Origin: Austropuccinia psidii
Taxonomy: Eukaryota > Basidiomycota > Pucciniomycetes > Pucciniales > Sphaerophragmiaceae
NCBI GenBank assembly: GCA_023105745.1
Contig: JALGQZ010000013.1
Span: forward strand, 2,267,501-2,331,500
DNA: 64,000 bases
Direction of reading: 5' to 3'
The position numbers and the translations under genes are program-made. The notes under the pieces are model-generated. The model saw only the letters and a program-made list of their open reading frames with translations, ran no database searches and was not told where the DNA came from. Each line of letters opens with the position of its first letter. The stretch's first letter is position 1. Below are positions 1,004 through 53,235 of this stretch, piece by piece.

Positions 1004-1047
1004 CACCAGAGAAAATCTTGCGTCAATCGTTGGCGATTGACTTCACG
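1004..1047 (+). repeat. Left terminal inverted repeat of E_out
   Basis: A 44-bp TIR. It begins CACCAGAGAAAATC and contains an internal perfect 8-bp hairpin (GTCAATCG, TTGG loop, CGATTGAC, 1022-1041), then CTTCACG. The partner is 53192-53235. The hairpin lies inside all four TIRs of the two elements, with one or two mismatches in some. Confidence 0.9.
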
Positions 1048-1379
1048 TTGCACCACAGTCAGTATAAAATCTTGCTTCAGTTGCGTTAGTGTCACTTTAT
1101 AGTCACTAGATTTTGTGGGTCACGTCACGTCAGCATCAAGACAACGTCAATCGTCACATGTGTCACATGAGAATGTCACTCAAAGCCCAAACCCATTCCA
1201 ACACTATTTGCAATGTTTGGGTAATTTCACCTCATTGGCTTCCGCATCCCCACCTAATCCACCCCAACGCTTCACATGCTTACGCGCCTGCACCGCTCTC
1301 CAGATGAGACTCCAACAATGCCCCCCCATCTCCGTCCTCACCACTCCTTACGCTTTCACACCCCCACCCTTACCATCTT
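1048..1379. repeat. Subterminal region of E_out with TGACG/CGTCA motifs
   Basis: Several CGTCA or GTCAC words occur close together (about 1123-1175), some as tight direct repeats. The same block lies at 45000-45275 in E_in. In CACTA-like elements subterminal short repeats bind the transposase; that role is inferred here. No gene is seen. Confidence 0.5.
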
Positions 1380-1945
1380 TATGATCACGTGGTGCCCTCC
1401 CGACATGCCCCCGACACCGCTAGCCATCCTTACACTTGTGTAGTGCCCTCCTGACACTTCTTACCATCCTTATGCTTGCGGAGTGCCCTCCCGGCACCAC
1501 TTACCATCCTTACGCTTGCGGAGTGCACTCCCGACACTGCTTACCATCCTTACGTTCACGGAGTTCCCTCCTGACATGCTCCTGACACCACTTACCCTTA
1601 CGCTTGGGGAGTGCCCTCCTGACATGCTCCCGACACCACTCATCCTTACGCTTGTGTAGTGCCCTCCCAACATGCTCCCTACACTGCTTACCATCCTTAC
1701 GCTCGCCGAGTGCCCTCCTGACATGCTCCCAAAACTGCTTACCATCCTTATGCTAGGAGTGCCCTCCCGACATGCTCCCAACACCACTTATCCTTATGCT
1801 TGTGTAGTGCCCTCCCAACACTGCTTACCATCCTTACGCTCGCAGAGTGCACTCCCAACATGCTCCCGACACTGCTGCCCATCCTTACGCTTGCCGAGTG
1901 CCCTCCCAACATGCTCCCAACACCACTTATCCTTACGCTTCATTA
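1380..1945. repeat. 51-bp-type tandem array, E_out copy
   Basis: About ten degenerate units carry a CATCCTTACGCTTGTGTAG-like core, then TGCCCTCCCGACATGCTCCC-like sequence. The E_in counterpart (44521-44985) is more regular with a 51-bp period. Open frames here are products of the repeat. Confidence 0.85.
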
Positions 1946-1956
1946 CTACATCCATA

Positions 1957-1982
1957 GTGTATGGTGGCTTGTTGGCATACAC
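1957..1982. repeat. Intergenic palindrome P1 (E_out)
   Basis: Arms GTGTATG...CATACAC flank a TGGC-containing centre. It lies between the 51-bp array and gene A, with counterpart 44477-44507 in E_in. It is the least perfect member of a palindrome family found in most gaps of the element. Confidence 0.6.
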
Positions 1983-2667: not shown

Positions 2668-4881
2668 ATGGCCCTAACCCCGGGAAATTTAAATGCATTC
2701 AATGAACAACAAACTTCAGCCCAGAGAGTGGAAGTGAAATCTCTGATATGGCCAGTAGTCGTGAATTAGGCATTGAAGTAGAGAGCCAATCACATGAAGA
2801 TAATCAAGAGCCACCAGTTCTTCCAGAATGTGAGTATTCATCCATCTTGAATATTTCTAATCTCTCAAAACCTGATATTGTGCCATAGCCTTTATGTCAG
2901 GTCAGCCTCCAAGCTCTCAGAAACAAAATTTTAAAAGTTATGAGAAGGAAAAGATTGTTGAACCTTGGGCACCAACAGAAGATGATGGGCAAGATGATGT
3001 AATTTTCAGTGGGGAGGTGGAAATTAAATTCAAGGAACAATTTGTCTCCAACATTGCTCAAACTATCCCAAGGCTCGAAAAAATTCAAAATGATAGTAAA
3101 ATTCCTGATTATGTGCTTCAAAATATTGCTCAAGCCATGAGCCTGCTCAAAATGGATTTGAACCGTAAGTCAATTACTAATTCAAAACAAAATTGATAAA
3201 AATAGCTGCTTACAATATATGGGCAGGTGTGGAGGTGGGAGAATCTCTACCTGAAGGATCTCGAGTTTTAATTGGATTTCCAGGCAAAGGATTAGGAAAA
3301 AGACCAAATATACATGAAACCAAAAAAACAAACAAAAGACGCCGTACCTTTGAAGCCACAAAGGATTCTTGGGATCAAGGTGATGAAATGATCAATGTTG
3401 AAGGGGACCATATTGATAATAAACCTCCGCATACTGAAACACTCCATGATGAAGCTCCACATACTGAAAGCCCCCGATACCCAATGAAACAATCCATGAT
3501 GAAACCCCTCCTGCCTCTCCTTGGAATATTCAAGCCTTTCAAGAAAGGGAGACAATCAAACATGATACAATGGGACGAGATATGACTGATAAAATCCCTG
3601 ACCCTGAGCTCGAAGTGTCATCGTCTGGTACTTTTCAAGGAATATTTGTATCCCGCATGGAAGAGTTTGCAGGAATTGTGAATTATCATTCCAATAATAC
3701 TCAACAATCATGGAAAAGGGGGCTTGATAATATCAATAGTATTTACAAAAATCGATGGGTCAATTTACCAACAAAGGATGCTTATACATTCCTGCCCATT
3801 GGTATTGAGGTGATCAGTAACCGAGAGCTTAAAATGTTGGCTTGGCTGGAGGACCTTGAGATGGCAGGTGAGTTTTATCTTTGTGCATGATACTTGATTA
3901 TTGGCTGTTGACTGGTGATATAAATTGCAATATAAAGGGTTAGATTTTTTTAAGCCAACAGAAACAGAAGCTTTTTTTAATAACAACATTTGGAATCTCA
4001 AATTGATTAAGGAATCAGCTAAACCTCCAGATAATCTCCCAAAATATGAACACTCCTGCTTCAAAATGGTTCAGAGCCTTCTTTACCCCGCCAATCCAGT
4101 TAAACATTTTTGGGCAAATGTTATGTTTGAATCCATTAGTTTAGTCTCATACGATGTGATTGCACCCAAACCATATGTTGCACCAACAGCAAATTCGACC
4201 GATCCTCTTGGACTCGAACGGGGAGCAGTTGAATACCTTGCCTCCTGCTTGAGTAAATTGAAGCAACGTGCAACCCAACTCAGCATTGAAGGTGGCGGGG
4301 CTGACAATGAGATATCCACAAAGCCGCACAAGAACCTGGAGGATCTAATGGATACAGTTATCCATTTGATGATTGCGTACAACATGGTACGTGCACATAC
4401 AAAGGTCGAAGTTAATGGCATCAAAGGAAAACTCACAAACTCAAAAAAAAATGAGGCCATCAAAGATCTTTTGACGTGTCACAAGAATCTCGGAATAAAT
4501 CAAATTTGCTATGGTATATTAGCGGCATTCTGTGCGGCGGGGATTCGTGGTTTGATGGTATGCTCAGATGACTGGAGAACAAGCTCAGTTAAAGGGGCTT
4601 TATCACTAATTGACATTTCCGAAAAACTTTCAGAGGGTAAAAATCTAGTGAAGCCAGTGTGGCTACGTACTAATAAGTATATATGTAATTTACTGAATAA
4701 AGGTTTCTTCTCATCAGAGTCTTTTAACCCCACTTTACCTCTTAGATTTGAATTTGCACGATGCTTAGCATTAGACTTTGGTGATGCCTGGGTGGCAAAG
4801 CGCGGTCTTGGTTCAAGTGATGAGGTCACCTTGACTGTACCCAGGTCAGCTAAACTCACAACCGGGATTGACCCGTTCTAG
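2668..4881 (+). pseudogene. Gene A, E_out copy: unknown cargo protein with frameshifts
   Basis: Family not recognised. Four exons are supported by comparison with the E_in copy. Exon 1 starts at ATG 2668 (MALTPGN) and ends before GTGAGT near 2830. Exon 2 runs from about 2900 to GTAAGT near 3162, and exon 3 from after gggcag (3229). The last intron is GTGAGT near 3869 to about 3960, after which a long open frame runs to the stop at 4881 (DFGDAWVAKRGLG, ending GIDPF). Compared with E_in, one C is lost near 2720 and one base near 3475 in a C-run; both shift the frame. The last exon (about 300 aa) is open. The middle is charged and low-complexity with a Lys/Arg-rich patch (KKTNKRRR) that could be a nuclear signal. 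It is followed by gene B on the same strand. Confidence 0.75.
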
Positions 4882-5459
4882 ATTAGCTTTGTATTAGATA
4901 TATTGTAATTGAATTTTGCAAATTTATTTATGAATTTAATAATCATGAGTTCCTATCCTACTATTGCCCGGATGCCACAGTCTGAATACCAATAGTAATT
5001 GTACTGCAGCATGCCTCAATACATCATTGAAGAGACTCCGACAAGATGCAAGCTGAGTCAGGCAGTTGTGCGCGCAATAAGCACACGCGGGGGCATTGCG
5101 GGAGGTCGCGTTTATCACTTCCTGCCAGCCCATAATAGGACAGATGTTCCTGTGTCTTTCAAGAGTACTAGGATAACTAGGGATCCGCAGCAGGATGCAT
5201 ATTGCATTTGCGTGTGCTTGTGATATTCCAAATGGTTGTATTGGAAAGTGATTGCATGGGAACATCAATATGTCAAATTGAATAATGCACTATCCACTGC
5301 AATTTTCAGGTTCAGGTATTTGAGATTGCGAATTGGCGAAGGTCAGGTGTGATCTTTCTTTTTAGCCGCAATTAAAAAAGATTCATCGACCGCAATTCAA
5401 TTCAGGTGATATTAATAAATCAGTAATCATTTGGTTTCATTTCATTTTCTGCTGCAAGC
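4882..5459. other. Gap between genes A and B, with palindrome P2 (E_out)
   Basis: No coding signal. The degraded palindrome at about 5000-5023 (TGTACTGCAGC, ATGCCTCAATACA) is the counterpart of a better one at 41600-41623. The rest presumably holds the end of A and the promoter of B; no clear TATA box is seen. Confidence 0.5.
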
Positions 5460-6855
5460 ATGCCATTCACGAAAAAGGAAAAGAGCATAAAAGGGAACTT
5501 GCGAGGAAGCGTCAGGCTGAGGAAGGAAAGTGTGAGTTGCTCGCTTAATCTCAGTGTATATATATAGATATATATGTATGCTTGCACATTTATGTGGCAC
5601 CCTCATTGGGCCCCACGGAAAAACATTGGCTTTAGTTGGTTCAGATTGTGCCAATGTCATGTGGGCTCCAACAGGGAAGTAAAAGGATGTGTGCCAAAGA
5701 AAGCTCCTTGGGCATTGGGCACCATTCTGTAATCAAAACTCCTTAGCTTCAAATGGCAGGAAGCAGTATCTGATATCTTGTCTGCTTCAACACATATTTA
5801 TCCCTCAACCACTCGGGAATAGTGGGAGATCCCAAAAGCCAAATGAGTGCAAAACAACCCAAATGAATAGGTTGTTTTCCTCCTCTCACCCAACAGCACA
5901 AATATCAATGCCAGTATCAGCAAATATCACCCCAAGTGAAATTCGGAGGGTTGTGGATGTCAATCCGATCAAACGTATTCACTTTGGCCATGTGGCAATT
6001 TTCTCTTCAACCAGATTACTCATTGCCCTTGTAAAATTCCAACCATTCACAACAATGAGTGAAGTCGAGGTCAATCAATGGGATGAATTATCACAATTCT
6101 TATTTTGCGAAAAGAGATTCACCGACCCGATTGCAACAAATGGAGCATTACTGGAGGGATTTATGTTTGCGATTGGGTGGTGCAAATGCAGCACGAAGAA
6201 TGAACAATTTGGTCTGTATGGAAGTGTCGGGAAAATTGAAAACGCAAAAGATGAATGGCGGAACCGAGGTGCCAATCTTAGCTTGGTGGGTTGCATTCTA
6301 GGTCAATCCTCACAATATGTTGGGGATAATTTATTTGAGAAGATTCAAAATTGCTACAACTCATTGGGGATTCCGTCTTTTGATCAAGTCAACTATGAAG
6401 GCAATATTCCTGCAAATCAGGGTGCATGCAAGTTTGCTTCCGCACTCACTTTCACCATGAATGGATTCAAAAACTTGCCTCATCTTGATAGGGATGCATT
6501 TCTGTATGATTCAGGATGGGGGTTTCAAGCTGATAAGCAGACCAGCCAAATTCAAAGAGATGCGTCAAAGCAGTTTACAGGGGGAAAATTGATTTTCCCA
6601 AATGAGCATTTTTGGATTGATCTATCCGCATGTCATGGGCTCATTCAGGTAGTGTGGGCCAGTAGTACATTTGTTGATCATACTGATCCAGCACAGGACA
6701 ACAAAAGCACGACACTAGTGGCTATGTCCGCACAATGTTCAAGAAGGTTAGCAAAAACAATGTGGCAAAAAAGCCATGGCTATTATGAGATTGGCAAGAG
6801 AGCGGGCTATCGAATCAGGGATGGTAATACAATCTCATGCCAATTCAAAGAATGA
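5460..6855 (+). CDS. Gene B, E_out copy: TET/JBP-like 2OG-Fe(II) dioxygenase, probably inactive
   Basis: The protein resembles the Tet-like 2OG-Fe(II) oxygenases numerous in rust fungi; TET/JBP enzymes oxidise 5-methylcytosine or thymine using 2-oxoglutarate, oxygen and iron. Exon 1 (ATG 5460, MPFTKKEK) lacks one base relative to E_in, shifting its frame. An intron follows (GTGAGT near 5530). The second part is open from about 5689 to TGA 6855 and includes the first iron-binding motif PHLDRD and GGKLIFPNEHFWIDLSACHG. At the presumed distal His, E_in and the family have VHYT, but here the codons read VDHT, so the His position is Asp with a His one residue later. A 51-bp stretch with an in-frame stop in one frame (about 5711-5761) is absent from E_in. 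Family identity is fairly secure; loss of activity is inferred. Confidence 0.75.
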
Positions 6856-6980
6856 GGAGATTTCCATGTGTGTTGGGTAAATAATGGTGGGGTAAGGCAG
6901 AGGACAATATACACCAGGATTGGATGGTTTCAAGTGCAGGAGATGGGGTGTCTCACATGAAAAAGGGGTGAAGTGGATTA

Positions 6981-7004
6981 TGTACGGTGGCATGCCATCG
7001 TACA
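6981..7004. repeat. Intergenic palindrome P3 (E_out)
   Basis: A 24-bp palindrome with half-sites TGTACGGTGGCA and TGCCATCGTACA, paired throughout with one G-T wobble. It lies just past gene B and before the 40-bp array. The E_in counterpart is 39671-39694. Confidence 0.85.
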
Positions 7005-7020
7005 TATGTCCTGGTTTGTT

Positions 7021-7710
7021 GCTCTTGTCCAGGATGCCAATGCTTCACACGCAAATCCTTATGCTTGTGCAGGTTCCGACAATGCTAAAAGTTCCTTATG
7101 CCTATGCGGGCTGCCGATGCTTCACATGCCAATCCTTACGCCTGTGGGGGTTCCCAAAAACTCACACGCCAATCCTTACGCATGTGCAGGCTCCCAAAAA
7201 TTCACACGCCAATTTTTACGCTTGTGAAGGTTCCCAAAAATGCTAAAAATTCCTTACGCCTGTACAGGCTTCCAATGATTCACACGCCAATCCTTACGCT
7301 TGTGAAGGTTCCCCACAATGCTAAAAATTTCTTACACCTGTGCAGGATCCCAACAATTCACACGCCAATTCTTACGCCTGTTCAGGCTCCCAACAATTCA
7401 CACGCCCATCCTTACGCCTGTGCAGGCTCCTGACAATTCACATGCCAATCCTTACACTTGTGAAGGCTGCCAAAAATGTTACAAGTTCCTTAAGCCTGTA
7501 CAGGCTTCCAATGATTCACACGCCAATCCTTACGCTTGTGAAGGTTGCCAACAATGCTGAAAATTTCTTATGCCGGTGCAGGCTCCCAAAAGTTCACACG
7601 CAAATACTTACGCCTGTGCAGGCTCCCAACAATTCACACGCCAATCCTTACGCCTGTGCAGGCTCCCAACAACTCACACACCAATCCTTACGCTTGTGAA
7701 GGTTCCTGAC
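7021..7710. repeat. 40-bp-type tandem array, E_out copy
   Basis: About 17 units near 40 bp long contain CACACGCCAATCCTTACGCC then TGTGCAGG and CTCCCAACAATT. The core ATCCTTACGCYTGTG is shared with the 51-bp array at the element end. The E_in counterpart is 39080-39650. No spacers of unique sequence, so not CRISPR-like. Confidence 0.9.
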
Positions 7711-8132
7711 AATTTAAACAATTCAATACGTGACTAAGATTAATAGCGTGTGACCATAGGAAAGGCAATTCCTCACGAATCTTGAGTGGCTTGCTCACAT
7801 GCGGGAACCTCCTGCTTTGTTACAGTTAAGAATTGATATGGCTCTATACCATGGAAGAAGAATATATAGGAGACGGTAACAGTGACTATTGGCACATTTT
7901 TGGCAAAAGAGGGTCACACAAACAAATACTCACTCAAACTTTTGGTGGGGCACTTATAAAGTTTTTTCTCACACAATAGGATATTTGAACCATTCAGCAA
8001 AATATAATTTCACGTGAGCAAAAAATGTAATAGAAATGGAAAATAACAATCATTGGATACAAATACTTTATTTGAAAGAAAGTATTACAAATAATAAAAA
8101 GAGGAAATAATGAGATTCTTTTTTAAAAAAAA
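7711..8132. other. Gap between the 40-bp array and gene C (E_out)
   Basis: AT-rich, matching 38659-39079 in E_in. It holds the 3' end of gene C, on the minus strand. No further feature is seen. Confidence 0.4.
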
Positions 8133-9506
8133 TTATTTTTCTAAGTATTTTGAGACTATCCCAGTGATGTCCTCCTTTGGATAAGCCTCCAGTGCCTGGG
8201 CAAGGAGGGAGTTTAGTTCCTCCCAGAATTCCTGGTGCATCTCATTTAAATGAGTTGCATCCACAAAAGGAATCATGTGGAGCAAGGGGCAATGCTCCAA
8301 CAAGATTCAGTTGATTGATTACTGGACGATGGCTTGAGGAATCATCAAAGTTGGTCGTAAGTCAGTGAATTCCTGGCAAGGGTCATCATGGGAATGAGAG
8401 GGGCTTTGCACCGGGGGGAGGAGGCATTGGGGTTCTTGGGGGCACTAGAAGGGATCTCTGGGGAAGGAGCCAGGTTTGGAGTGGAGGGGGGGAACAGAAT
8501 GGGAAGGTGGGCAAGTCAGGGAAGAAGAAGGGGGAGGGGGAGGGGGGGATCCACCGGGCGTATCGTTGATGAAAATTATGGAGCGGGGAGTGGCAGGACG
8601 AGCTGGAGATGGTCAAAGGAGGCGTGAGGAAAAGTTGAGTAGAGTTTTCAAAGTGAAATTGGGACTTACCAAAAGTTTCCTCTGTGGATTGTGTAGGAGC
8701 CACCTCAGGTTCTAGCTCACGAGTTGTATTGTCCTCAGGTGATTGGGAGGATGGACTCGGGCCAGGAATAGGTGGCTCTTTGGTTTGGGAGGGTTCTAAA
8801 AAAGGAGTAAGAGTCAGTTAACTTGACTCGAAAGTGAAAGTGAAAATGAAATGAAACTTTGGCTTCTTACCGCGGAATAATTCCTCTGACCATTGGGTGC
8901 CACTTGGGCCTGGAGTGGGTTGCCGCAGGGTTTGCTTGCAAGGCAAACTAGGAACAGGAGAGTCTTGTTGGGGGGGATTCGGGGGGTTTTAATCTATGAG
9001 TAATGGAAAAAAGTCAGTCTTATTGCGTGAAGATAAATGATATAAGGAGGAGAAAGAAAACTTACTTTGGCATTTGAATCCCATTGGTGACAAGACATGG
9101 TGACGATTGGCCCAATTTTGAATGTCCTCTCGCCATCGCCATCCTTCATCGGCCGGATAATCACTTCGCTCAGGTTGAGGAGTGAAGTGACCATTGGATG
9201 GTGGCCTAGGAGGGGGGTGGAAAAATCAATACTTGAGAGGACAGGGCTAATTGTCCAGAATCGTTTCCTTCGGCCTGCTTGAGGTCCCGATGTCCATTCG
9301 CGCTCGGATATGGTTTCATCATTGTCGACCACAAAGGAGTCCTCGCAAGGGTTTCTTGGGCAAGAACTCCTCTGGCCTTTTGGTTGAAAGGGGCAGACAA
9401 CGAACAAACATTTCTTGTGTGCTTGTCGGCAAGCATCACAAGCGTCGGTCGTCATTGAGGAACAAATGCAGGGGATACCCCGCTTGGTGCATAAAGTGCA
9501 CAACAT
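8133..9506 (-). pseudogene. Gene C, E_out copy: Cys-rich, Pro-rich cargo protein, broken
   Basis: The start at 9506 gives CTLCTKRGIPC and, after a short gap, DACDACRQAHKKC. This CxxC...C...CxxC...H...C pattern should bind zinc and recalls small fungal DNA-binding clusters; no exact family is recognised. Downstream exons encode a region matching the E_in reading EGWRWREDI and a long proline/serine-rich part. They end with a conserved C-terminus (ILLEHRRLLHM, ALEAYPKEDITGIVSK in E_in) with stop at 8133-8135. Introns show GTAAGT donors. The frame joining the Cys cluster to the middle exon is shifted here, and a further insertion-like difference lies near 9225. It is transcribed toward the 40-bp array, away from D. 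Confidence 0.65.
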
Positions 9507-9931: not shown

Positions 9932-11657
9932 CCATGGTGAAGCTGAGAAGATCTCAGCAGTTGCAGCACCTGCAAAAGTCTCAGCTTCAAGGCATGTGGG
10001 CGAAATTGAAGCTCAGTCGCTGCAAATGCTGCAACTGAGAAGGGAAATGCTGGTGTGAGGCAGAAGAACAATGGGGTTCTGGCTGAGTATTGCTATTAAT
10101 TGAATTGTAAAGCTCAGTCAAATCACCTTTGTTTCCTTAAATAGCCACCCAATCACCCAGGAGGGTGGTCGTGAGGCCCTCATTGAATGTGCATGGTGGG
10201 TGCAATTCCCAAATGCCCCATGCAGAAAAGAATGTGGTGCATTTGGTCACAAGTGACCGCAGCGAGATTACCGGCTGTATGGCCTGGTAATAGTGTTTGA
10301 ACAAAGGGGGGGCTGTAAGACAAGTGAATATAGCGTGAGCTTGCCTCAACCCATTGCTCAGGTTTGCTTTTGGGTCATAATTGAAATTCTCAGTGGCTGA
10401 AAATTTTAATTTCACAGTAATTGAACTATTGATATAACAATATAAAATGCACCATGCTGATCCATTGCTTGGTTGTTTTTGTATGCACACAATCTGAGCA
10501 TTTGGCACCGCATTGGATGAAATTTCAGCCAGGTGCAGCATTTCACACGCTTTGGTGAAGTGCTCCAAACTGAGCCTTCCAATGAGCTTTTGCGAAAATT
10601 GTCCGGACCATGGCTTTACTGAGCACTTCCACACAGTGCTTTTGACCATGACATGCTCAGCTTGCGTGTGCAAATCGGGTGAAACACAATTCTGAGCATG
10701 TGGAACATGGGCTACGTATATGCAAACAATTGGAAGGTGGATACCCATTGGCTATATGCATGCAGGCTGAAGTAGTATTACAGCATCCTAGTCTGTACAG
10801 CCTACACTGTAGTACGCAGTACATCTTTGTAAATGTATGCTGTGGGGCAGAGCAAAAGCTGTAAAACAATGTAACATGCAATCATGCCAAGCCATCAAGT
10901 TAAATTTCTCAACTGCATCCCTTTATGCACCTTGTTGGAGAGCTCTGCCTAACTACGGCACAGATGCGCGTGTAATCCAAGTGAATGTAAGTGGGTCATA
11001 ATGGGATGACTTATTATTTGGGTCATACACAAACAGTGGATTCACTCCGGTGCCATTTCTGGGCAAACTTTGACTGGCTGCGCTTGTTCATCGCGCGTGC
11101 TCATTGGTGGGCAGGCAAAAGCTTTAATACGCACCCCCGGCGGGTCATAAACAGGCAACTTTCACAGGCCTGGAAGACATTTTACTGCCAGTCTTCCAAC
11201 CAGCTATTTTCTTGGTCGGGTGGTCAGCTTGACTGCAGATGCTCACCTGCTCGCGTGTGGAAACCTGAGGCCAATCAGTGTGGATTTGCTTCAGCCTCAT
11301 CCACATTAGAATAATCCCAACCTATGATTGTTGAGGCTGGTTATTTTGTCGTGAGGATTGCCTACCGCAGGTCATTTTCTGAACGTTCTCACGCGCCCTG
11401 CGCATGTTGTGGCCCCTGGCTTGCAGCCAAAACCTCCCTTGGGTGGGTGGCCTCTTTCGCCAGAGTTTGGTACACACGTGAGGCAAAGACCCTGATGCCA
11501 ATCTCAGTGGATTTGTACCCGCCTCAAACGCAATAGGGGTGACTGTATATGTGGATCACGGTTCACAGCCCGCACCCCCTTTGATTATGCCACACATTCC
11601 TCCCTGGACGCCCAGTAGGCATCAGTCAGAAAAAAACTTCAGGCAAAACCAAGCTCA

Positions 11658-11681
11658 TGTTTGGTGGCACGCCACCAAATA
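11658..11681. repeat. Intergenic palindrome P4 (E_out)
   Basis: Half-sites TGTTTGGTGGCA and CGCCACCAAATA. The counterpart 34814-34837 is more perfect. Confidence 0.85.
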
Positions 11682-11792
11682 TATCTCACCCGCCCACACA
11701 CAAACATCCCCACAGTGAGATTTCCCTTTGAAACCGCCAACATTGCCCAGGAAGTCCCTGTGCAACAATTAACCTGGGGAAGATATGCTCAT

Positions 11793-11816
11793 TGTTTGCT
11801 GTCACACCAGCGAACA
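11793..11816. repeat. Intergenic palindrome P5 (E_out)
   Basis: Half-sites TGTTTGCTGTCA and CACCAGCGAACA. The counterpart is 34674-34697. It lies about 370 bp upstream of gene D. Confidence 0.8.
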
Positions 11817-12183
11817 TGGCTGCATGCCTCTAATATGCCCCTCCACAATAAGTTGCTACAACCCACCCAATTTTGAATATGCTAATGCAACCTTGATCCA
11901 CCAAAGGTTTTTTAACTTTCTGCAGATACAGCAGTCATATTGGTGCACCCACATTTTTGCCACCTTGCCTTGATATATGCCCCAAATCGGATATGAAAAT
12001 TATGAGCCCAAGAGGCCCACCTCCATCAAGACCATTCCCGTAACCACAGGCCATCCCCCCTTGAGCCCATTGCTGCCTCTCATATAAGTTCCCCACCTGC
12101 GCTTATTTGTCTTCATTGCCTTTAACTAACCCTTCCCAATCATCTAATTTCCAACTGCACCCAAATAATTTAAAATACCCATC

Positions 12184-14027: not shown

Positions 14028-14071
14028 CACTGGGGCGAATCTTGTGTCAATCGTCGGCGATTGACTTCACG
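14028..14071 (+). repeat. TIR of E_in next to the transposase gene
   Basis: 44 bp: CACTGGGGCGAATCTTGTG, then a hairpin GTCAATCG-TCGG-CGATTGAC, then TTCACG. The partner is 45276-45319. It differs from the partner at only a few positions, including CACT against CACC at the tip. Confidence 0.9.
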
Positions 14072-25190: not shown

Positions 25191-25192
25191 GG

Positions 25193-39650: not shown

Positions 39651-39670
39651 TAGCAACAAATCAGGACAGA

Positions 39671-41741: not shown

Positions 41742-43978
41742 CTAAAACAGGTCAATCCTGGTTGTGAGTTTAGCTGACCTGGGTACAGTCAAGGTGACCT
41801 CATCACTTGAACCAAGCCCGCGTTTCGCCACCCAGGCATCACCAAAGTCTAATACTAAGCATCGTGCAAATTCAAATCTAAGAGGTACAGCGGGGTTAAA
41901 AGACTCTGATGAGAAGAAACTTTTATTCATTAAATCACATATATACTTATTAGTACGTAGCCACACTGGCTCCACTAGACTTTTACCCTCTGAAGGTTTT
42001 TCCGAAATGTCAATTAGTGATAAAGCCCCTTTAACTGAGCTTGTTCTCCAGTCATCTGAGCATACCATCAAACCACGAATCCCCGCCGCACAGAATGCCG
42101 CTAATATACCATAGCAAATTCGATTTATTCCGAGATTATTGTGACACGTCAAAAGATCTTTGATGGCCTCATTTTTTTTTGAGTTTGTGAGTTTTCCTTT
42201 GATGCCATTAACTTCGACCTTTGTATGTGCACGTACCATGTTGTACGCAATCATCAAATGGATAACTGTATCCATTAGATCCTCCAGGTTCTTGTGCGGC
42301 TTTGTGGATATCTCATTGTCAGCCCCGCCACCTTCAATGCTGAGTTGGGTTGCACGTTGCTTCAATTTACTCAAGCAGGAGGCAAGGTATTCAACTGCTC
42401 CCCGTTCGAGTCCAAGAGGATCGGTCGAATTTGCTGTTGGTGCAACATATGGTTTGGGTGCAATCACATCGTATGAGACTAAACTAATGGATTCAAACAT
42501 AACATTTGCCCAAAAATGTTTAACTGGATTGGCGGGGTAAAGAAGGCTCTGAACCATTTTGAAGAAGGAGTGTTCAGATTTTGGGAGATTATCTGGAGGT
42601 TTAGCTGATTCCTTCATCAATTTGAGATTCCAAATGTTGTGATCAAAAAACGCTTCTGCTTCGGTTGGCTTAGAAAAATCTAACCCTGTATATTGCAATT
42701 TATATCACCAGTCAACAGCCAATAATCATGTATCATGCACAAAGATAAAACTCACCTGCCATCTCAAGGTCCTCCAGCCAGGCCGACATGTTAAGCTCTT
42801 GGTTACTGATCACCTTAATACCAACAGGAAGGAATGTATGAGCATCCTTTGTTGGTAAATTGTCCCATCTATTTTTTTAAATCCTATTGATATTATCAAG
42901 CCCCCTTTTCCATGATTGTTGAGAAATATTGGAATGATAATTCAAAATGCCTGCAAACTCTTCCATGCGGGATAAAAATATTCCTTGAAAATTCGCAGCG
43001 GATGACACTTCGGGCTCAGCGTCGGGAATTATATCAGTCATATCTCGTCCCATTGTATCATGTTTAATTGTTTCCCTTTCTTGAAAGGCTTGAATATTCT
43101 GAGGAGAGGCGGGAGGGGTTGCATCATGCATTGTTTCATTGGGTATTGGGGGGCTTTCAGTATGTGGAGCTTCATCATGGATTGTTTCATTGAGTATTGG
43201 GCGGGGTTCAGTATGCAGAGGTTGATTATCAATATGGTCCCCTTCAACATTGATAATTTCATGACCTTGATCGCGAGAATCGTTTGCGGCTTCAAAGGTA
43301 CGGCGTTTTTTGTTTGTTTTTTTGGTTGCATGTATATTTGGTCTTTTTCCTAATCCTTTGCCTGGAAATCCAATTACGACTCGAGATCCTTCAGGTAGAG
43401 ATTCTCCCACCTCCACACCTGCCCATATATTGTAAGCAGCTATTGATATCAATTTTGTTTTGAATTAGTAATGGACTTACGGTTCAAAACCATTTTGAGC
43501 AGGCTCATGGCTTCAGCAATCTTTTGACGCACATAATCAGGAATTTTACTATCATTTTGGATTTTTTCGAGCCTTGGGATTGTTTGAGCAATGTTGGAGA
43601 CAAATTGTTCCTTGGATATAATTTCCACCTCCCCACTGAAAATTACATCATCTTTCCCATCATCTTCTGTCGGTGCACAAGGTTCAACAGTCTTTTCCTT
43701 CTCATAACTTTTAAAATTCGGTTTCTGAGAGCTTGGAGGCTGCCCTGAAATAAAGGCTATGACACAATATCAGGTTTTGAGAGATTTGAAATATTCAAGA
43801 TGGATGCATACTCACATTCCGGGAGAACTGGTGGATCTTGATTATCTTCATGTGACTGGCTCTCTACTTCAATGCCTAATTCATGACTACTGGCGATATC
43901 AGAGATTTCACTTCCACTCTCTGGGGCTGAAGCTGGTCGTTCATTGAATTCAGTTGAATTTCCCGGGGTTCGAGCCAT
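41742..43978 (-). pseudogene. Gene A, E_in copy: unknown cargo protein, one stop
   Basis: Start ATG 43978 (MARTPGNSTEFNERPAS). The first exon is acidic and Ser-rich. The exon boundaries match the E_out copy; the last intron has a clean atacag acceptor near 42690. A TAA at 42877-42879 replaces the Tyr codon seen in E_out (INSIYKNRW), cutting the protein about two-fifths along. The long final exon (41742-42698) is open and highly similar to E_out, with motifs such as ICYGILAAFCAAGIRGLMVC and FEFARCLVLDFGDAWVAKRG. No known domain is recognised; conservation between copies and position beside the TET-like gene suggest a role in the element. Confidence 0.75.
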
Positions 43979-44520: not shown

Positions 44521-44985
44521 CGGAAGCGTGAGGAGGGTAAGCGTTGTCGGAGGCATGTCGGGAGGGCACTACATGAGCGTAAGGATGGTAAGCAGTGTCG
44601 GGAGAATGTCGGGAGGGAGGGTAACTGTTGTCGGAGGCATGTCGGGAGGGCACTACATGAGCGTAAGGATGGTAAGCAGTGTCGGGATAATGTCGGGAGG
44701 GAGGGTAAGCATTGTCGGGGGCCTGTCGGGAGGGCACTACATGAGCGTAAGGATAATAAGCGTTGTCGGAGGCATGTCGGGAGGGCACTACACAAGCGTA
44801 AGGATGGTAAGCTGTGTCGGAGGCATGTCGGGAGGGCACTACACAAGCGTAAGGATGGTAAGCTGTGTCGGAGGCATGTCGGGAGGGCACTACACAAGCG
44901 TAAGGATGGTAAGCATTGTCGGAGGCATGTCGGGAGGGTACTACACAAGCGTAAGGATGGTAGGGGCGGGGGTGTGAAAGCGTAA
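44521..44985. repeat. 51-bp tandem array, E_in copy
   Basis: About nine units, the last four near-identical with a 51-bp period. They contain GTCGGAGGCATGTCGGGAGG, GCACTACACAAGCGTAAGG and ATGGTAAG. Because 51 is a multiple of three, one frame reads the 17-residue repeat CRRHVGRALHKRKDGKL; the frame is open but has no start context or introns like the real genes. Confidence 0.9.
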
Positions 44986-45275
44986 GGAGTGGTGAGGACG
45001 GAGAGGGGCAGGCAGTGTCAGAGTCTCATCCGGATGGAGGGCGGTGCGGGTGCGTAAGCATGCTAAGCGTCGGGGAGGCGGAAGCCAATGAGGTGAAATT
45101 ACATGAACGTTGCGCATAGTGTTCAAATGGGTTTGGGCTTTGAGTGACATTCTCATGTGACACATGTGACGATTGACGTTGTCTTGACGCTGACGTGACG
45201 TGACCCACTAAATCCAGTGGCTATAAAGTGACACTAACGCGACTGAAGCAAGATTTTATACTGACCGCGGTGCGA

Positions 45276-45319
45276 CGTGAAGTCAATCGCCAACGATTGA
45301 CGCGAGATTCGCCCTGGTG
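45276..45319 (-). repeat. TIR of E_in next to the 51-bp array
   Basis: On the minus strand CACCAGGGCGAATCTCGC, then the hairpin GTCAATCG-TTGG-CGATTGAC, then TTCACG. 44 bp, partner 14028-14071. Confidence 0.9.
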
Positions 45320-45322
45320 ACC

Positions 45323-45846
45323 CAATGGACCCAATTTCTAGATTTGTGCGTTAATTCTAATATGCATCCATTACCAATTAAATCCATCTGACTTTTTTAT
45401 ATTGTAGAATTGGTATTGCACTTTCCCATCACTCTATCCTTTCAGCACAAATTGATGGAACAATTACAGCAGTAGTGCAGGAGAAGGCACTGGACAATTA
45501 CTTCAATAATCCTGACTGTTAAGTACTGATTGCATCCATTGCCGCAGCTGGAACTGGCCTCAATATAACTTTTGCTAATCTTGTCTATCTAATGGTGAGG
45601 GGACCCCCAAAATTGTACCCTGATTTTTGGCCTTTGACATCCACATTTCCAGGAGCCAAATTGGAACCCAGCCATTGAGGCTCAGGCTGTTGATCGACTC
45701 CATCGTACTGGCCAACAACAACCTGTAAAGGTCATTCAGTTGAGGTCAACATGCGGAGGGTACCTTTCAAGCTCATCTTTGACCCTGATTGTATTGCTAT
45801 TCTAAAATCCTTCCTTATGGAAATGCCATTTTCCAAACACCAATAG
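45323..45846 (+). pseudogene. Gene D, E_out copy, 3' part: SNF2 helicase C-terminal lobe
   Basis: It resumes exactly where 14027 stopped (QWTQFLDL) and carries SAQIDGTITA, IASIAAAGTGLNIT and AVDRLHRTGQQQPVKVI, with stop TAG 45844-45846. It differs from E_in by TAA at 45520-45522 (CDC...VLIA region) and a 19-bp deletion after GTCAT near 45735, between CAT repeats. The split shows that E_in inserted into an already expressed-like gene of its own family. Confidence 0.85.
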
Positions 45847-46186: not shown

Positions 46187-48141
46187 ATTGCAGAGCATCA
46201 CCATTCGGCCTAATAACTGGCATGTCAAGTATTTTGAGGGCGCTAGTCTGCATCTTACTACAGCTTTTGAGCCAATCTTGATCAAATACCTGAAATGATA
46301 AGCCTTCCAGAATATCACCATCATCTGTCGATTGTAATTCTGGAAATCTATCAATAGTTTTTTTACCCTTTTTTTTAATGCAATTACAAAACTCTATGTC
46401 TCAATCCATTTTTAATACCAATTCATTAAATAACTGGGAGCGCCAGCGTAAGCCCACTTTGCGGTAAACTTGATGGCCATTTTCCAGTACCTCCTCAGTA
46501 TCTGAGCATACTCGAGGGTCATTGAATTGTGATGCTAGAATGAGAAATTTAGCCATATCACACCATTCACGACCGCGCTCACAGGTCTGCACATAATCAA
46601 GTAGATCATCATCAGTCTTTGCTCACAATGAAGAAGAGATACATTAACTAACCCTTTGACAAATCTTTGAGAGCTAGCCGCCACGACCCCATAAATATTA
46701 TGATCCTTATTCCAACAGTAATAATGATACTCAGTGCTGACAAGTGCGAGACGGAAGGTATGGTAAAACGCCATAGACATCAGCTCATTCAACAGGTGTT
46801 GCCATGAGCTCTCCCAGTCCCAAGTGAATTTCTTTAGTCCTAGATTGTGGAGCTCATTTTTGCAGTAGATTTGGAAACCCTGAGACTGAACCTGTGTTGA
46901 TGGCTCATTGAAAACATCCTTGGGGACATATCCGAGATGACCAGCCACTTGAATTGCAATTTCACACTCTTCTGTGCTTGGTGGTGCTGGTAGTGAGGAA
47001 AAATCCTTATCCCTAACTTTGAGTAGGAACAGGCAATGGGCATGCACTGCTGATCCCATTCCATTGACATTCTCTGGAAGTTCTGCTTTCAGCCATTTTC
47101 GTTGCTCCCTCTGGCTTTCACGCTTTACCACATTGTGAGCTTTACAAGACTGGTTCCTTTGCTGTCTGACCTCAGATTGTTCAAGCATACTCTGGGAAAA
47201 GGGTATTTGAGGATGGGTGAACTCACTATTTGACTGAGTTCCATGCTCATGCGCTGTGAAATTGTCCCTCCTTGGTTCATCATTTGTTTCCATTTGAGTC
47301 AGAGACATGTTCTCATCCTCATCATCCACCATTTTTTCTCTTGATGAACTGGCATGAGCTGTTCTTGGTTTGGAGGCATATGGATGATGACGTCCAGTGA
47401 CTTTCTCTTTATGGACCAGAGGTGAAGATGCATAAAGTTCATCACCTGCGATGCACATCATCAGTTAACACATCAAAAAATTAATGAAGACTAGTCATAC
47501 TCACAATCTTAAATTGGCTCCTGAGATTGGACTGACTTGCCTTTAGGTGCCATATCTAACCCATGAAACAAAAATATCAAATTGTGAAAAAGGTTATACT
47601 CTGAAGTTCAAATGACTTACTTTGATGAACCGTCAATCCTGGATTTCCCTCCGACAGACCACTCCAATGGTCTTTTTTGTCGCCCCCCATCAACGTGCCT
47701 TTCATCGCCCACATGAACCTGAGATCCTGATGGAATATTGAGGGTTGGCTGTTTACTTTGGCCAAAGGGATCCTGGGATGCGACTGGATTCTGACCGGGA
47801 TTTAGGAGGAGCTCACATGGAAATTTTGATTGGGGATTAGCGTTTGATGATATTTGAGGTGTGCCTTCTGGCCCCTGAGACACATGCATTTGTGTATTAG
47901 TGGGATTTGGGGGAATTGGTGTGACGGAAATATTTGGGATCAACCAAGTGCTTGAAGTTGGAGCCTTTGGATTTCCCACATCAATGTTAAGACCTGATAC
48001 ATTCATTGAGGATGTGATAGGGGTTGTGAGAGGAATGTTGAGACTCAATGGTGACTGTGTTCAAACATATTCTATGCTAGATTCACTATCTGATTCATGA
48101 ACAGAACCTTAACGGGATTTATGTGGCTTGGAAGATGACAT
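46187..48141 (-). pseudogene. Gene E, E_out copy: unknown protein, several breaks
   Basis: Start at 48141 (MSSSKPHKSR, then a TAA where E_in has TCA). The third exon (46535-47461) is open through FTWDWESSWQHLLNELMSM. It then loses a segment relative to E_in, between the position of ALMERYF and QRVSY: the E_in stretch of about 130 bp is missing near 46675, and the frame changes. The distal part (QVYRKVGLRWRSQLFNELVL and beyond) is still recognisable down to TAA 46187. Confidence 0.75.
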
Positions 48142-49102
48142 AAGGGCGGAAAAAGTACAGTAATCTTTTTAACTAGATAAAACACCTCAGTATTATCATA
48201 AAATAGAGTGATATGAGATGAAATCTTTTCAAATTTAGAATAGAGAAATTCTATGAATAGTTGGAACCAAGTGTTGTGTGGAAGTCCAATAAGACTCTTT
48301 TTAGGAGAATCCTCCCTGCCTCCTCTTGAGATCCTCCGCTTTTGTTGGAAACCACCCTGCATGGCCTACCACCATATAATATAATATTCCCTTGATCTCA
48401 AAGGGGACCCATCATCCATAAGTAATCATATTCAGTAACAATTCCACCTCCCCATTGTCACATTTTGTGAATTATCCAAGCTGCCAATATATGCATGGAA
48501 ATTCCACCGCATTGTACATCCGTAAAGGAGTATATTCATGAAGGATTTACCCACAAAAGAGACTTAACCTTTTCAAGAAAGGCGAGACAATCCAAATCAC
48601 ATTCCAACCAATTAAAGGCCTGCTGCACTCAAACCAAATACCAAGAATTTAGCTGCACTCCAACCCCTTATGTAATAGAGTTATATCGTAATGTCTTTTA
48701 TAAGGTTTAAGCCATGTACGATGGCGTGCCAGCATACATGGTTTGAATGTCAATCCCCTCAATTCAATGTTGACACATCCCTATTGGAACACCGCTCAAG
48801 GGTCAAAACCGCAGTATCACCATGTGTAAATAAAGTAGAATATGTATGAGCATTGAGAAGCACGGCATTTTACCCAATTAAACTCCTAACCAATTCTGCC
48901 ATCCAGATGAGACATGTTACACTTTATCAGCTGCAGCTCACGCAACATTACAAATGGGATAAAACTCTCAGATGGCTCAAATCATCTCCCACTTCATAAA
49001 TAATCACTCAATTTTTTTTCCAATTAGTAACACTCCTAAACACTTTCACATCAGCCATAGATATTTATACACAAACCAACCATACTCCCAATTCCTGCAA
49101 CA
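48142..49102. promoter_or_regulatory. Divergent promoter gap between genes E and T (E_out), uninterrupted
   Basis: About 960 bp. It holds P6 (48715-48738) and a TATA-like TATTTATA (49062-49069) before the transposase ATG at 49103. The Gypsy-1 empty site AATAATCACTCAATTTT lies near 49006-49022. Confidence 0.6.
48715..48738. repeat. Intergenic palindrome P6 (E_out)
   Basis: Half-sites TGTACGATGGCG and TGCCAGCATACA. Confidence 0.8.
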
Positions 49103-52100
49103 ATGACAACCCGCCGCTATTCCTCAATGCGTATATGCATGTGTCAACACTGCTCAACTCAAACACACTCTTCCCCTGAGGGTGATAGGCACAGAGTTGC
49201 CTTCACACCTTTCCAATATAAACAGCACATTAAAAAGCTCAAATCAACCATTGCACCCAAATCTCTTCCAAACATCCCTACTTCTGCATTAGGATCTGAG
49301 TGCCCACAACTTCTATTGGATCAAATATTCCCAGCTGATTATTCACCATTGACCCAAAGCACCTTCTCCACAGCACCAGGTCTCAATTCAACTGCCCAGA
49401 AACCATACAGCAGCAGTCAAAACCTTCCCCCACAAGACCTTGGAATGATAATATCTCCCATTCTATCATTAAGGTATAATATACCCTGCAGGGCTTCACC
49501 CATTCTCAACCCCTCCCTAAACCTGCTGATCAAGTCCAGCATCTCAAGCTCCGGTGTTCCCCCCACTCCTGCATTCCATACACCTCAAGATCTGAGTACC
49601 ATATTTGAACATCTCCAATTGGAACCAGTGATTCAAAACTATATATGTTCTACTCAATGTTTCTCTCTTAATGGCCTTACTAAATCGGTCACAACTGACC
49701 AACCCCACTGTCAACGCCATAATGACCCAAATGATCATGATCCCCCTTGCACATAATCATTAGGCAAATTTGTCTATTCATTTGAACCCTGCACCCAAAA
49801 CACAACCAACATGAAGCAAAAGCTTATACCAACAAAACATTTCATTTATCAACCATTCAAAAATTGGCTTGCCAGATTTCTTCCGCATGCTGGAATTATG
49901 GAAATTCTGCATCAACATCATTAATCCCAAACTCCCAAACGTTCCCCGAATTGTGACGTCTGGGATGGATTGGTCTGGAGATGCTTCACTGGCACATCAA
50001 ATATCAATGACCCCCTATTCATGTCCATTCCCAGTGCATTGGCTTTCTCCATTTATGTGGACTGGTTTAATGCACATCAAAAGTCAACCCAGTTGGCCAG
50101 CATTGGACCTATCATGCTTATTTGTCTTAATCCCCCCCCAAGTGAAAGATTGAAGCCAGAGAATGTCTATGTTGCAGGAATCATCCCTGGTCTGAAGGAG
50201 CCAACTTACCTTCAATTGAATTACCTATTAATGCCACTCATCAAGGAGCTCAAAGAGCTATGGAAAGGTTACCATTTTTCACCCACCTCAACAGGTCCTT
50301 CAGGATCCTTTATCCGTGTTGCCATTCTCACAGCCATTGCAGATGTGGTTGCCATGCGCAAGCTTTCTGGATATATTTCCCATTCAGGAAACCACTTTTG
50401 TAATTTTTGCACCATTCACAATGTTCAAATTGAAGAAATTGGTCCTCAATTTCACTACACACGCTCATATCAAAATCATAAATCAACCATTGCCAAATGG
50501 CTTCGGGAAACCCAACAACAAAGACAAGCAATTTTCTCTGAGTAAGGAGTGCAATATTCAATTTTAGAAGACCTTCCGTATTAGGATGAAACCACAATGG
50601 TTAATCTTGACATAATGCATAATTTAAGACTGGGAATTTTGAAGGATCATGCAACTTTCAAATTGTGCATTCCAGAGTCCAAATCAAAAATTTACCTCAG
50701 GTCCCGCAGGAAATCCAATGATACCAACAGTTCAGACTCAGATTCCATGACCTCCAACAGCTCTCTTGATAAAATCACATTGAGAGAGGCCCGCTCCCTG
50801 AGAAGAGACGCAGCAAAAATAATAAATGAGCCACTCCCCACTACTTCAACCGGAAAAAACTACTTCCCAATGCCCACCCCTCACACAGAACATCCATCTA
50901 GTGGTTCTGCGGAGATTCCTTCATTTGATGCAAATTACATCCCCACTTCTAAAATCCCCTCTGAATTGGATATCACTGCACTGAGTGATCACCAGATCAA
51001 GGGTGAGGCTCTGGAGCATCTCCAAAAAATCATATCTGAGACGATAATTCCCTCATCATGGACAATAGTACCTTGCAACATGGGTTCCCCCTCTCATGGT
51101 AGCTTACAAGCCGCTGAATGGGCTCTCTTATATAAGATCTATATTCCATTTTTAATGCTCAGTCAATAGATGTCATTAGATGTACACCAATTGGCCAACA
51201 TTCAAAGAAAAATGGGTCAGTCAGAAAAACTTGCAAATTAACTAACCAAGAATACATTCCATTTGAGTAGTGCTATCAACATTGCCACAAGTTGGACTGT
51301 TTCAATAGATGATGCAACTGCATTTGCTGAACATTGGAAAAAATTCCGCCTTTCCAATCAACACCTGTTCCCAAAACAGAAAAGTAAACCAAATCATCAT
51401 TTTGCTGATCATATTCCCAAACTCTTCCAACGTTGGGGCCCCGCACAAGCCTCAGCCACATGGGGTTATGAGCGCTTGATTGGAGTATTTGCAAAAATGC
51501 CAACAAATGACAAAATATGTATGTCAATTAATAAGATCAATATATTCATATTTATTAAACACCTGAACTGAATAAGACTAACTTCTTGAAGCTCTGAATA
51601 GATGATATAGATAAAACCTTACTTCAACATATCTGTTGATGTTCCAACCTTTCCATTCTCCTGAAACCCCCATCTTTGCCATGTGAAAGAAAACAGCTTT
51701 TCGAATCACAGCCACCTGCCCTGTTCAATCACCATAGATATAACAAACCATCCCGCCATGACCAAGAAAATTATGATTGCCTGGCTGAGTACTGACATAA
51801 TTTTCATTCAACAAGGGAAATAGTTGATTGGATCAGCTTAGACACTACCATGCAATCCACAAGTCCTCTCACTTCAAGGATTGTCTAACCTTGGTATTTT
51901 CCAGTTTCAAACATTAATATTGGGAACAATATATTTTCAACTGAATCCAAAATTGTCAGCAACAGTGTGATATGTTTTCTGAGGGGAAACTCACGACGAT
52001 TTGGTATTATTAATAGTATTCTCAAAGTCTCTGAGCCATCTAGCATACTGAACAATAGCTTTCTGATCTTAAAAACTTTGAAGATTGATGTGAATTTCTT

Positions 52101-52263
52101 ACCAGATTTGCCGCATCTGAATATTTATAAAGCTGTTGGTTTTGATAATGAACACTTGATTATATCTGAAGAAGAAATAGAAGGTAACTTTGGATTGTAT
52201 GATAACAAAGTTCTGTCATGTGGACTGCTTGTAATGATAAAGCTGTTATTTCATGATATTTAG
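49103..52263 (+). pseudogene. Gene T, E_out copy: Plavaka-like DDE transposase, several stops
   Basis: Same protein as 14947-18110: MTTRRYSSMRICMCQHC, YVDWFNAH, IPGLKEP, GNHFCNFCTIH, VNLDIMHNLRLGILKDH, WGYERLIG, and a C-terminal exon ending HDI at 52263. Stops: TAA at 49754-49756 (CAA in E_in), TAA 50543-50545, TAG 50582-50584 (TGG in E_in), and TAG near 51168 (CAG in E_in). It does have CAA where E_in has TGA. Most changes are of the C:G to T:A type. Confidence 0.85.
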
Positions 52264-53191
52264 TCTACAAAAATGCAAATCTCTCAGATTCATTAGAAAT
52301 TTTGCTAGTGAAATAACTTCCTCAAAATTTAGTGACAGAGACATGCCATTGTGACAAGAAAAGCCCATTATTTCACATTGCCACAAAGAACTTACTATTT
52401 TTACATTGGGTAAAGTGTGAATAAGCCAAGTTCAATGATCAAATGACTCGCACACTCCCCTTTCACAGCATCCAAAGTTTCTAACTGCGCCATCATCATG
52501 TTGGAAGGGGAATCGTCCCTTGCGCACCCGCACCTTCCAATGCACACGCCAGTGCAAGCACACCTGCACCCGCACCCGCCAATGCACACCCAAGAGCAAG
52601 CGCACCCGCCAAGAGTGGCTTCATGTGTCACCCACAAATGGTCAATGCCACCTGACATTAGGCCTTCACATGTATTGCCTTTGTGTGCATGTGTCACCCA
52701 TACACCCACTGTATTGTGCAGTGGGCTCTAACCATGTCACCCCCTCCTGCTGAGCTAGCTGATTCATGGCTACACAAAATTAGGACAACACATCATTTGG
52801 CCATGGTGTGCCCATCACGCACACACACCGGCACGCGCGGTATTGTGCGATGGGCTCTACCAGTGTCATCTGCAAAACAGCAATCCTGCTCAGGCGGAGT
52901 ACTTTCATGGACGCCCTGGTGAAGTAAAACCCCCTGCCTACATCAAGACTGGCTGAAGGACCTCTTTGATGTGTGTTTGTGCAAACAGGCAGGTCTTGTG
53001 TAATTTTTAACAACCATCGGACAGTTGCGGGATAATCAGGTGGTGAGGAATCTGAGGTGAAGGCACAGGGGAACCAATATTGGTGGATGTCACAGGATTT
53101 GGTGTAAGACAAGAGTGGGACGCGTGCTTGACGTTCGCTTGATTTTTGCTTGACGTGAGCTCAACTTTTATCCTGCTTGACGTTTACTTGA
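52264..53191. repeat. Subterminal repeats of E_out: GT-rich tract and CGTCAAGC words
   Basis: Mirrors 14072-14946. A CACCCGCACC/CCAATGCACACGCC-type tract lies at 52515-52615, the CCGCCTGAGCAGGATTG block (complement) near 52870, and GCTTGACGT words at 53120-53190. No gene. Confidence 0.65.
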
Positions 53192-53235
53192 CGTGAAGTC
53201 AATCGCCAATGATTGACACGAGATTTTCCCTGGTG
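53192..53235 (-). repeat. Right terminal inverted repeat of E_out
   Basis: On the minus strand CACCAGGGAAAATCTCGT, hairpin GTCAATCA-TTGG-CGATTGAC, TTCACG. 44 bp. TTA follows at 53236-53238. Confidence 0.9.

Follow-up and report, generated by a model that had tools for sequence, protein, structure and literature searches.

TET genes have been described in eleven transposon lineages (PMC12730594, Kojima 2025; available text). According to the same text, TET-bearing EnSpm elements with CAC..GTG ends and 3-bp duplications occur in the rust Puccinia striiformis, related EnSpm families are found in Austropuccinia psidii, escape from methylation has already been proposed as their benefit, and the function of transposon-borne fungal TET genes is so far without experimental validation. 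Here we analysed a 64,000-nucleotide stretch of A. psidii DNA (the window; assembly GCA_023105745.1, contig JALGQZ010000013.1, positions 2,267,501 to 2,331,500, forward strand), which contains two nested copies of a 20.9-kb DNA transposon carrying a transposase gene (T), a TET-like gene (D), a SNF2 ATPase gene, a gene for a six-cysteine protein (C) and two further genes (B and Y). By analogy with known anti-silencing transposons, we consider it likely, at a probability of roughly 0.55, that this transposon uses its TET and SNF2 proteins to rid its own copies of silencing cytosine methylation.

The unit shares CAC..GTG ends, 3-bp duplications, a TET/JBP gene and a rust host with the published TET-bearing EnSpm (CACTA) elements, whose transposase has weak similarity to both Plavaka and EnSpm, as it does here (PMC12730594, available text). 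Because such elements of rusts have been published, the kind of element is already known, and the statement of an earlier note on this DNA that the system is undescribed appears to hold for the full gene set only. The words SNF2 and cysteine each occur 0 times in the main text of PMC12730594 (Table S1 and Data S1 lay outside this search), and term searches of the available text of two A. psidii genome papers returned no TET, CACTA or helicase in PMC8063080 and no dioxygenase or SNF2, with CACTA once, in PMC12774611. A title and abstract search, read through its best matches, gave no publication on a TET-SNF2 transposon. The six-gene set with SNF2, a six-cysteine protein and a repeated palindrome is apparently new, unless it appears in the supplement of PMC12730594.

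The helicase-bearing Academ elements (AcademH), as far as their available description goes, are likewise DNA transposons with an acquired helicase-type gene, in a different superfamily. The Kyakuja, Dileera and Zisupton (KDZ) transposons reportedly carry TET/JBP and CxC cysteine-cluster genes (Iyer and colleagues), so that a TET gene stands beside a transposase and a cysteine-cluster protein as in our unit, with a different transposase. Spm has subterminal repeats, a likeness to the unit, and to our knowledge it encodes no enzyme that modifies 5-methylcytosine (5mC); nor do we know VANC, the accessory protein of VANDAL elements, to be a TET or SNF2 protein. The target site duplications (TSDs) of Kyakuja, Dileera and Zisupton are 7-8 bp long, in contrast to 3 bp here (PMC12730594, available text). 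The available text of PMC10398659 describes VANC proteins, which lift silencing and bind to noncoding tandem arrays made up of short motifs, and Spm TnpA, whose activation accompanies demethylation. VANDAL thus resembles the unit in its internal noncoding arrays with a short motif and in its anti-silencing accessory gene, the latter being putative in our case, and En/Spm resembles it in being of CACTA type and in encoding a protein of its own that is linked to demethylation.

Comparison of the window with itself and of the end sequences placed the outer copy at 1004-53235, flanked by the duplication TTA (1001-1003 and 53236-53238), and the inner copy at 14028-45319 in the opposite orientation, flanked by ACC (14025-14027 and 45320-45322). 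The insertion site of the inner copy is the SNF2 gene of the outer copy, and the inner copy is itself split by a Ty3-type long terminal repeat (LTR) retrotransposon (18211-28642; TSD GTGAT) whose LTRs are 99.5% identical to each other. Without these inserts the outer and inner copies measure 20,937 bp and 20,855 bp, and they are 91-94% identical over aligned bases. Their terminal inverted repeats (TIRs; CAC..GTG) are 45 bp long (44 bp in the earlier note) and agree at 41/45 positions in the outer and 40/45 in the inner copy. Six genes lie in collinear order in each copy, together with two tandem arrays and five palindromes, the gene order in the outer copy being B (+), D or TET (+), C (-), SNF2 (+), Y (-) and T (+). 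Some frames of the window copies contain stops or shifts and are described unmended. The bounded unit, its 3-bp duplications, the six collinear genes and the two arrays were all anticipated by the earlier note, and both copies bear them out. The boundaries are as follows, with the TIRs read from the end sequences.

1004-53235, plus strand: outer (older) copy, interrupted by the inner copy
14028-45319, minus strand: inner copy, lying within the outer copy's SNF2 gene
1004-1048, plus strand: TIR at the B end, outer copy
53191-53235, minus strand: TIR at the transposase end, outer copy
14028-14072, plus strand: TIR at the transposase end, inner copy
45275-45319, minus strand: TIR at the B end, inner copy
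18211-28642, minus strand: Ty3-type LTR retrotransposon in the inner copy, foreign to the unit (LTRs 18211-20235 and 26617-28642)

We searched the host assembly (1.015 Gb) with the TIR pattern (35 places, at most 3 mismatches), a check that the earlier note had proposed. The pattern occurs at 2595 + 2565 places (5,160 ends), and the reversed pattern, used as control, at 0 + 0. If every TIR pair were a full unit, these ends would amount to ~2,600 units and ~5% of the assembly. Six further units (E1-E6), read whole from the assembly with their boundaries and gene content, are 20,407-21,210 bp long, collinear with the window copies and 95.1-99.2% identical in pairs, and all six have matching duplications. 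Matching TSDs and the same gene set are therefore present in all eight copies read, including the SNF2 sequence, and the linkage of SNF2, Y and C to the unit is drawn from these eight. A single bounded element with a transposase, TET, SNF2, a cysteine-cluster protein and palindromes, as the earlier note had described it, is supported in the window and in the six further copies.

The spacing of the ends was examined on 100 listed TIRs of the 5,160, all of them perfect and all on C1 of the assembly. They form 36 consecutive plus/minus pairs, 21 of which are spaced by 20.0-21.5 kb, 11 by 23-90 kb and 4 by more than 400 kb; none of the 36 is closer than 20.0 kb. Deletion derivatives are usual in CACTA families. 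The lack of shorter pairs in this sample suggests that the cargo could be needed in cis.

Among the matches listed from the assembly, the genes keep fixed distances. TET and B on the same strand within 20 kb of each other have identical spacing, within 1 bp, in 48 of 49 pairs, and no pair on opposite strands was listed; T lies 12.49-12.57 kb from TET in 17 of the 21 pairs within 40 kb and 13.7-14.3 kb from B in 25 of 28, while 18 of the 54 T matches have no listed TET or B partner. On C1 below 49 Mb, a listed TIR lies at the expected, fixed distance from all six listed TET and all seven listed B matches. Neither TIR-bounded units without B and D nor B and D as host genes without TIRs, which the earlier note had named as evidence against its proposal, were seen among these listed C1 matches and the 36 TIR pairs. 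Many of the genes are open: the best 101 of 7,843 first-look TET candidates were scored, and all 101 have an open 411-aa frame at no less than 98% identity, 124 of the best 125 of 6,524 B candidates lack a stop, and so do 51 of the best 54 of 10,314 transposase candidates. Since these scored sets contain only the best matches, they are uninformative on the fate of most copies.

Two side observations concern this linkage and C1. Six of the 93 B homologues among A. psidii protein records (P0024, P0063, P0065, P0075, P0083 and P0088) also hold a TET domain, as expected of gene models if B and TET adjoin. On C1 (G000:C1), four TIR positions and one palindrome at ~32.22-32.36 Mb recur at 32.42-32.56 Mb with a shift of ~200 kb, which is either a segmental duplication or an assembly duplicate.

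The genes of the two window copies are located as follows.

5683-6855, plus strand: gene D, TET-like 2-oxoglutarate (2OG)-Fe(II) oxygenase, outer copy (PF20515, E 4.8e-35; VDHT where other copies have VHYT)
39832-41055, minus strand: gene D, TET-like oxygenase, inner copy (both HVDKD and VHYT retained)
12184-14027, plus strand: 5' part of the SNF2 ATPase gene, outer copy (interrupted there by the inner element)
45323-45802, plus strand: SNF2 gene, 3' part, outer copy
31909-34306, minus strand: SNF2 gene, inner copy
49061-52263, plus strand: transposase gene, outer copy
14947-18152, minus strand: transposase gene (tnp2), inner copy (Transposase_21, E 1.3e-12)
8322-9506, minus strand: gene C region, outer copy, with the six-cysteine cluster at its start
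37301-38655, plus strand: gene C region, inner copy
3919-4881, plus strand: gene B, last-exon frame, outer copy
41742-42704, minus strand: gene B, last-exon frame, inner copy (93 homologues)
46188-48060, minus strand: gene Y, outer copy
29491-31570, plus strand: gene Y, inner copy

The TET-like protein of the well-kept copy E4 matches PF20515 at 156.6 bits (cut-off 27). The motifs HVDKD or HLDKD and VHYT both lie in the open D frame of E3, E4, E5 and E6, and one of the two in E1 and in E2; we assign the histidine of VHYT as a putative metal ligand. A sequence search of PDB with D returned one match, at chance level. The full-length SNF2 model, spliced from E4, contains both halves of the motor (PF00176, 177.4 bits; Helicase_C, PF00271, 60.4 bits), and motifs I, II, III and VI were recognised by eye. 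The frames of motifs I, III and VI are all present in E1, E3, E4 and E6; that of motif I was not found in E5, nor that of motif VI in E2. By sequence, its best PDB match is Rad5 at 187 bits (60 of 81 matches shown), but in a tree of 34 chosen matches, none of which was recognised as DNMT5, it sits on a long branch that joins ascomycete SNF2 proteins with a support of 0.94; we therefore do not regard it as a copy of Rad5. All 93 homologues of B are A. psidii proteins, and neither B nor Y matches a Pfam family above cut-off, the nearest candidate for B, CDC24, scoring 20.9 bits under a cut-off of 21.3 and leaving B in no clear family.

To compare the constraint on these genes, we computed the ratio of nonsynonymous to synonymous differences (pN/pS) over the coding stretches of E4 vs E5 and E4 vs E2, dropping codons with stops or gaps, and applied Fisher tests. 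The two ratios are 0.38 and 0.47 for B, 0.37 and 0.36 for D, 0.26 and 0.51 for SNF2, 0.28 and 0.30 for Y, and 0.36 and 0.32 for T, with p from 0.037 to 9e-11, indicating that B, TET, SNF2, Y and the transposase are under purifying selection. This argues against the cargo being passenger DNA, with the unit moved by the transposase only and TET, SNF2, B, C and Y functionless. In favour of that view, TET genes have been described as passively captured by rust transposons and exchanged between them (PMC12730594, available text). We nevertheless regard it as very improbable and already disfavoured, as selection on B, D, SNF2 and Y is about as strong as on the transposase, gene spacing is fixed where matches co-occur, and the 36 TIR pairs include none below 20.0 kb.

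The transposase matches Transposase_21 (PF02992) at 57.0 bits (cut-off 28.6) and Plavaka at 25.3 bits, under the cut-off of 26.3, so that Plavaka is only a distant relative and the earlier note's term Plavaka-type is not the best label. In addition, the inverted ends are CAC..GTG and the TSDs 3 bp long in 8/8 copies, whereas Plavaka ends are TGT..ACA or CATCA..TGATG (PMC12730594, available text). The motifs CNFC and ATWGYER, read for the EnSpm/CACTA criterion, were found in E1, E3, E4 and E6. All of E1-E6 have subterminal repeats, with 3-4 occurrences of ACGTCA in the 150 bp next to each end. The nearest named transposase matches outside A. psidii come from Phakopsora pachyrhizi (46% identity) and P. 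graminis (41%). We class the transposase by these sequence features as tnp2/EnSpm-like rather than Plavaka. We also noticed a steady difference between the two TIRs of E1-E6 (ends L031-L048), the B end reading mostly ..CTCGCGTC..ACGTCGC and the transposase end ..CTYGTGTC..ACGTCAA.

The noncoding part of the unit contains two kinds of repeats at the following positions, none of them stranded.

1410-1940: tandem array 1, outer copy, 40-51 bp units (CCTTACGC motif at the same place in E1-E6)
44532-44962: tandem array 1, inner copy
7026-7713: tandem array 2, outer copy, ~40-bp units
39080-39582: tandem array 2, inner copy
4999-5024: palindrome 1, outer copy, 5' of TET
6980-7005: palindrome 2, outer copy, 3' of TET
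11657-11682: palindrome 3, outer copy, 5' of SNF2
11792-11817: palindrome 4, outer copy, 5' of SNF2
48714-48739: palindrome 5, outer copy, between Y and the transposase
41599-41624: palindrome 1, inner copy
39670-39695: palindrome 2, inner copy
34813-34838: palindrome 3, inner copy
34673-34698: palindrome 4, inner copy
28911-28936: palindrome 5, inner copy

The palindrome is 26 bp long, of the form CGG-N10-CCG (consensus ATGTWCGGTGGCATGCCACCGWACAT), and was found five times per copy in 8/8 copies, with at most 6 mismatches allowed in E1-E6, 7 in the window and 3 in the assembly. The ten matches in the window lie at corresponding places of the two copies, with none outside them. In E4, one palindrome lies 460 bp 5' of the TET start, one just 3' of TET, two 5' of SNF2 and one between Y and T, and 20 block shuffles of E4 gave 0 matches at up to 6 mismatches. 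The assembly contains 7,473 places (control 0), and of the 29 perfect palindromes listed for C1 below 49 Mb, 26 have a listed TIR at a distance of 9.9-10.9 kb, where 0.2% would be expected at random. Since the palindrome recurs in intergenic places that otherwise differ, it suggests a shared, putative binding site; alternatively, these sites may derive from a small palindrome that hopped. CGG-N10-CCG would be a candidate site of the Zn2Cys6 type. The start of C reads CX2CX6CX9CX2CX6C in E1, E2, E4, E5 and E6, which fits the spacing CX2CX6CX5-12CX2CX6-8C that we take to be the Zn2Cys6 rule, and E3 stops before the sixth cysteine.

In counts made for E4 and E5, the most frequent 9-mer of either copy is GCGTAAGGA (other strand TCCTTACGC), with 11 occurrences in each, compared with a shuffled mean of 0.15 for E4. 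Its core CCTTACGC was counted 7-12 times in every copy of E1-E6, in a single orientation and in two clusters at the array positions. Array 1 units (E4, ~600-700) also contain CCGACACTGCTTA, which we take to be close to the En/Spm TnpA motif, possibly by chance.

Recognition of the noncoding repeats by the element's own proteins is suggested by the analogy with VANC and Spm TnpA (PMC10398659, available text). In the mechanism that we propose, the six-cysteine protein would attach to the CGG-N10-CCG palindromes, to the short-motif arrays next to the genes, or to both. Silent chromatin would be opened by SNF2, and 5mC in the CpG-rich ends and promoters would be oxidised by TET; expression of the transposase would follow, and with it movement of the whole unit, and copies falling silent would decay by the CpG/TCG mutation process of the host. 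Every functional step is one that we infer. The bounded element of the earlier note stands and its Plavaka label does not, while its notion of self-control by base oxidation and remodelling stays conjectural. An elaborated form of the mechanism, in which the six-cysteine protein reads palindromes and arrays and recruits SNF2 and TET to the unit's own promoters, co-activating transposase, TET and SNF2 in a self-contained, methylation-sensitive feed-forward loop, seems to us improbable as a complete account.

Several results weigh against clearance of methylation by the unit's own proteins. C scores 18.2 bits against the Pfam Zn_clus profile, below the cut-off of 21, and its residues 22-35 align to profile positions 2-15, as though the halves were swapped, so that C is only predicted to bind DNA; selection on C is not significant either (pN/pS 0.41 and 0.42, p 0.23). 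The predicted structures of B and D (mean pLDDT 42 and 30) are too poor for use. Relative to the majority sequence of E1-E6, 295 of 652 consensus CpGs (45%) are gone from the outer copy and 127 of 654 (19%) from the inner copy, and the outer-copy loss comprises 42% of TCG vs 18% of other NCG. The heavy loss in the older copy indicates that possession of TET does not shield inserted copies, which are still attacked. CpG loss was not slowed in the arrays of the outer copy (p 0.91) and was slowed just marginally in those of the inner copy (p 0.04), and the palindromes of the two window copies are kept no better than their flanks (p 1.0 and 0.38); we therefore found no protection of arrays or palindromes from mutation in the window copies. 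Genes are also broken among E1-E6: the TET and transposase frames in E2, the transposase frame, which is shortened, in E5, C by a stop and Y by a shortened frame in E3, and TET by a gap and SNF2 by a shortened exon 2 in E1. E6, whose TET frame is four residues shorter, was listed among the non-intact copies as well, and E4 has no comparable break in the frames looked at.

The C-to-T differences between the two window copies are concentrated in CpG, and in TCG most: 117 of 291 inner-copy TCG sites correspond to TTG in the outer copy, vs 13-21% for other NCG and 2-5% elsewhere. TCG-site hypermutation has been described in Pucciniomycotina (PMC12730594, available text), and in A. psidii CpG methylation lies in transposable elements, most strongly in young ones, younger elements also being richer in CpG (PMC12774611, available text). 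The observed/expected ratio (o/e) of CpG in the unit is 0.35-0.65 in the window and 0.61-0.66 in E1-E6. At 30 perfect termini, a sample that favours young copies because the matches are perfect, the median is 0.83 inside (first 1.5 kb) and 0.12 outside (1.5 kb; range 0.03-0.65). The retention of CpG in the intact lineage fits protection of active copies, and a recent burst explains it equally well.

The strongest rival is that the unit is CpG-rich through recent arrival or a burst, not through protection by TET, to which we give a little less than even odds. The copies are 95-99% identical and older ones lose CpG, the 30 compared ends, being perfect matches, favour young copies, and the greater CpG content of younger A. 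psidii elements (PMC12774611, available text) points the same way. The LTR element inserted at 18211-28642, however, is also young by its LTRs and has long open frames, yet its CpG o/e is 0.14 and its GC content 0.31; this is a single comparison, and the lineage seems to live with very few CpG.

A second rival holds that TET and SNF2 act globally on silent DNA anywhere, the element being one beneficiary among many. In Coprinopsis, oxidised methylcytosine is found on many transposon types, including retrotransposons (PMC12730594, available text), and targeting by the element's proteins is something that we infer here from sequence. The low CpG o/e of the neighbouring young LTR element, against 0.35-0.66 in the unit, speaks against such global action as far as one LTR element can, and the arrays and palindromes inside the unit resemble targeting sites; we consider this rival unlikely.

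A concrete idea of how the proposed self-clearing would be targeted comes from the palindrome shared between intergenic sites and from the SNF2 partner. Thousands of ends, many near-identical open copies and nested older ones in a CpG-depleting genome make the function of such a TET testable on sequencing reads that have already been reported, since 5mC and TCG decay can be compared between intact units, dead ones and LTR elements of equal age.

Outside the unit, both flanks of the outer copy (583-755 and 53265-53911) are 68% identical to 21723-21895 and 22264-22910 of the retrotransposon in the inner copy. As these flanks resemble a Ty3-type retrotransposon, the outer element was seemingly inserted into an older Ty3-type element, giving a four-layer nest. 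Positions 1-525, at the window edge, are a piece of the same 2-kb LTR as that of the 18211-28642 element, 99.8% identical to it. Two tRNA genes (Rfam) lie on the minus strand at 58295-58367 and 58664-58736, within a 237-bp direct repeat (58251-58487 and 58620-58856) of 91% identity.

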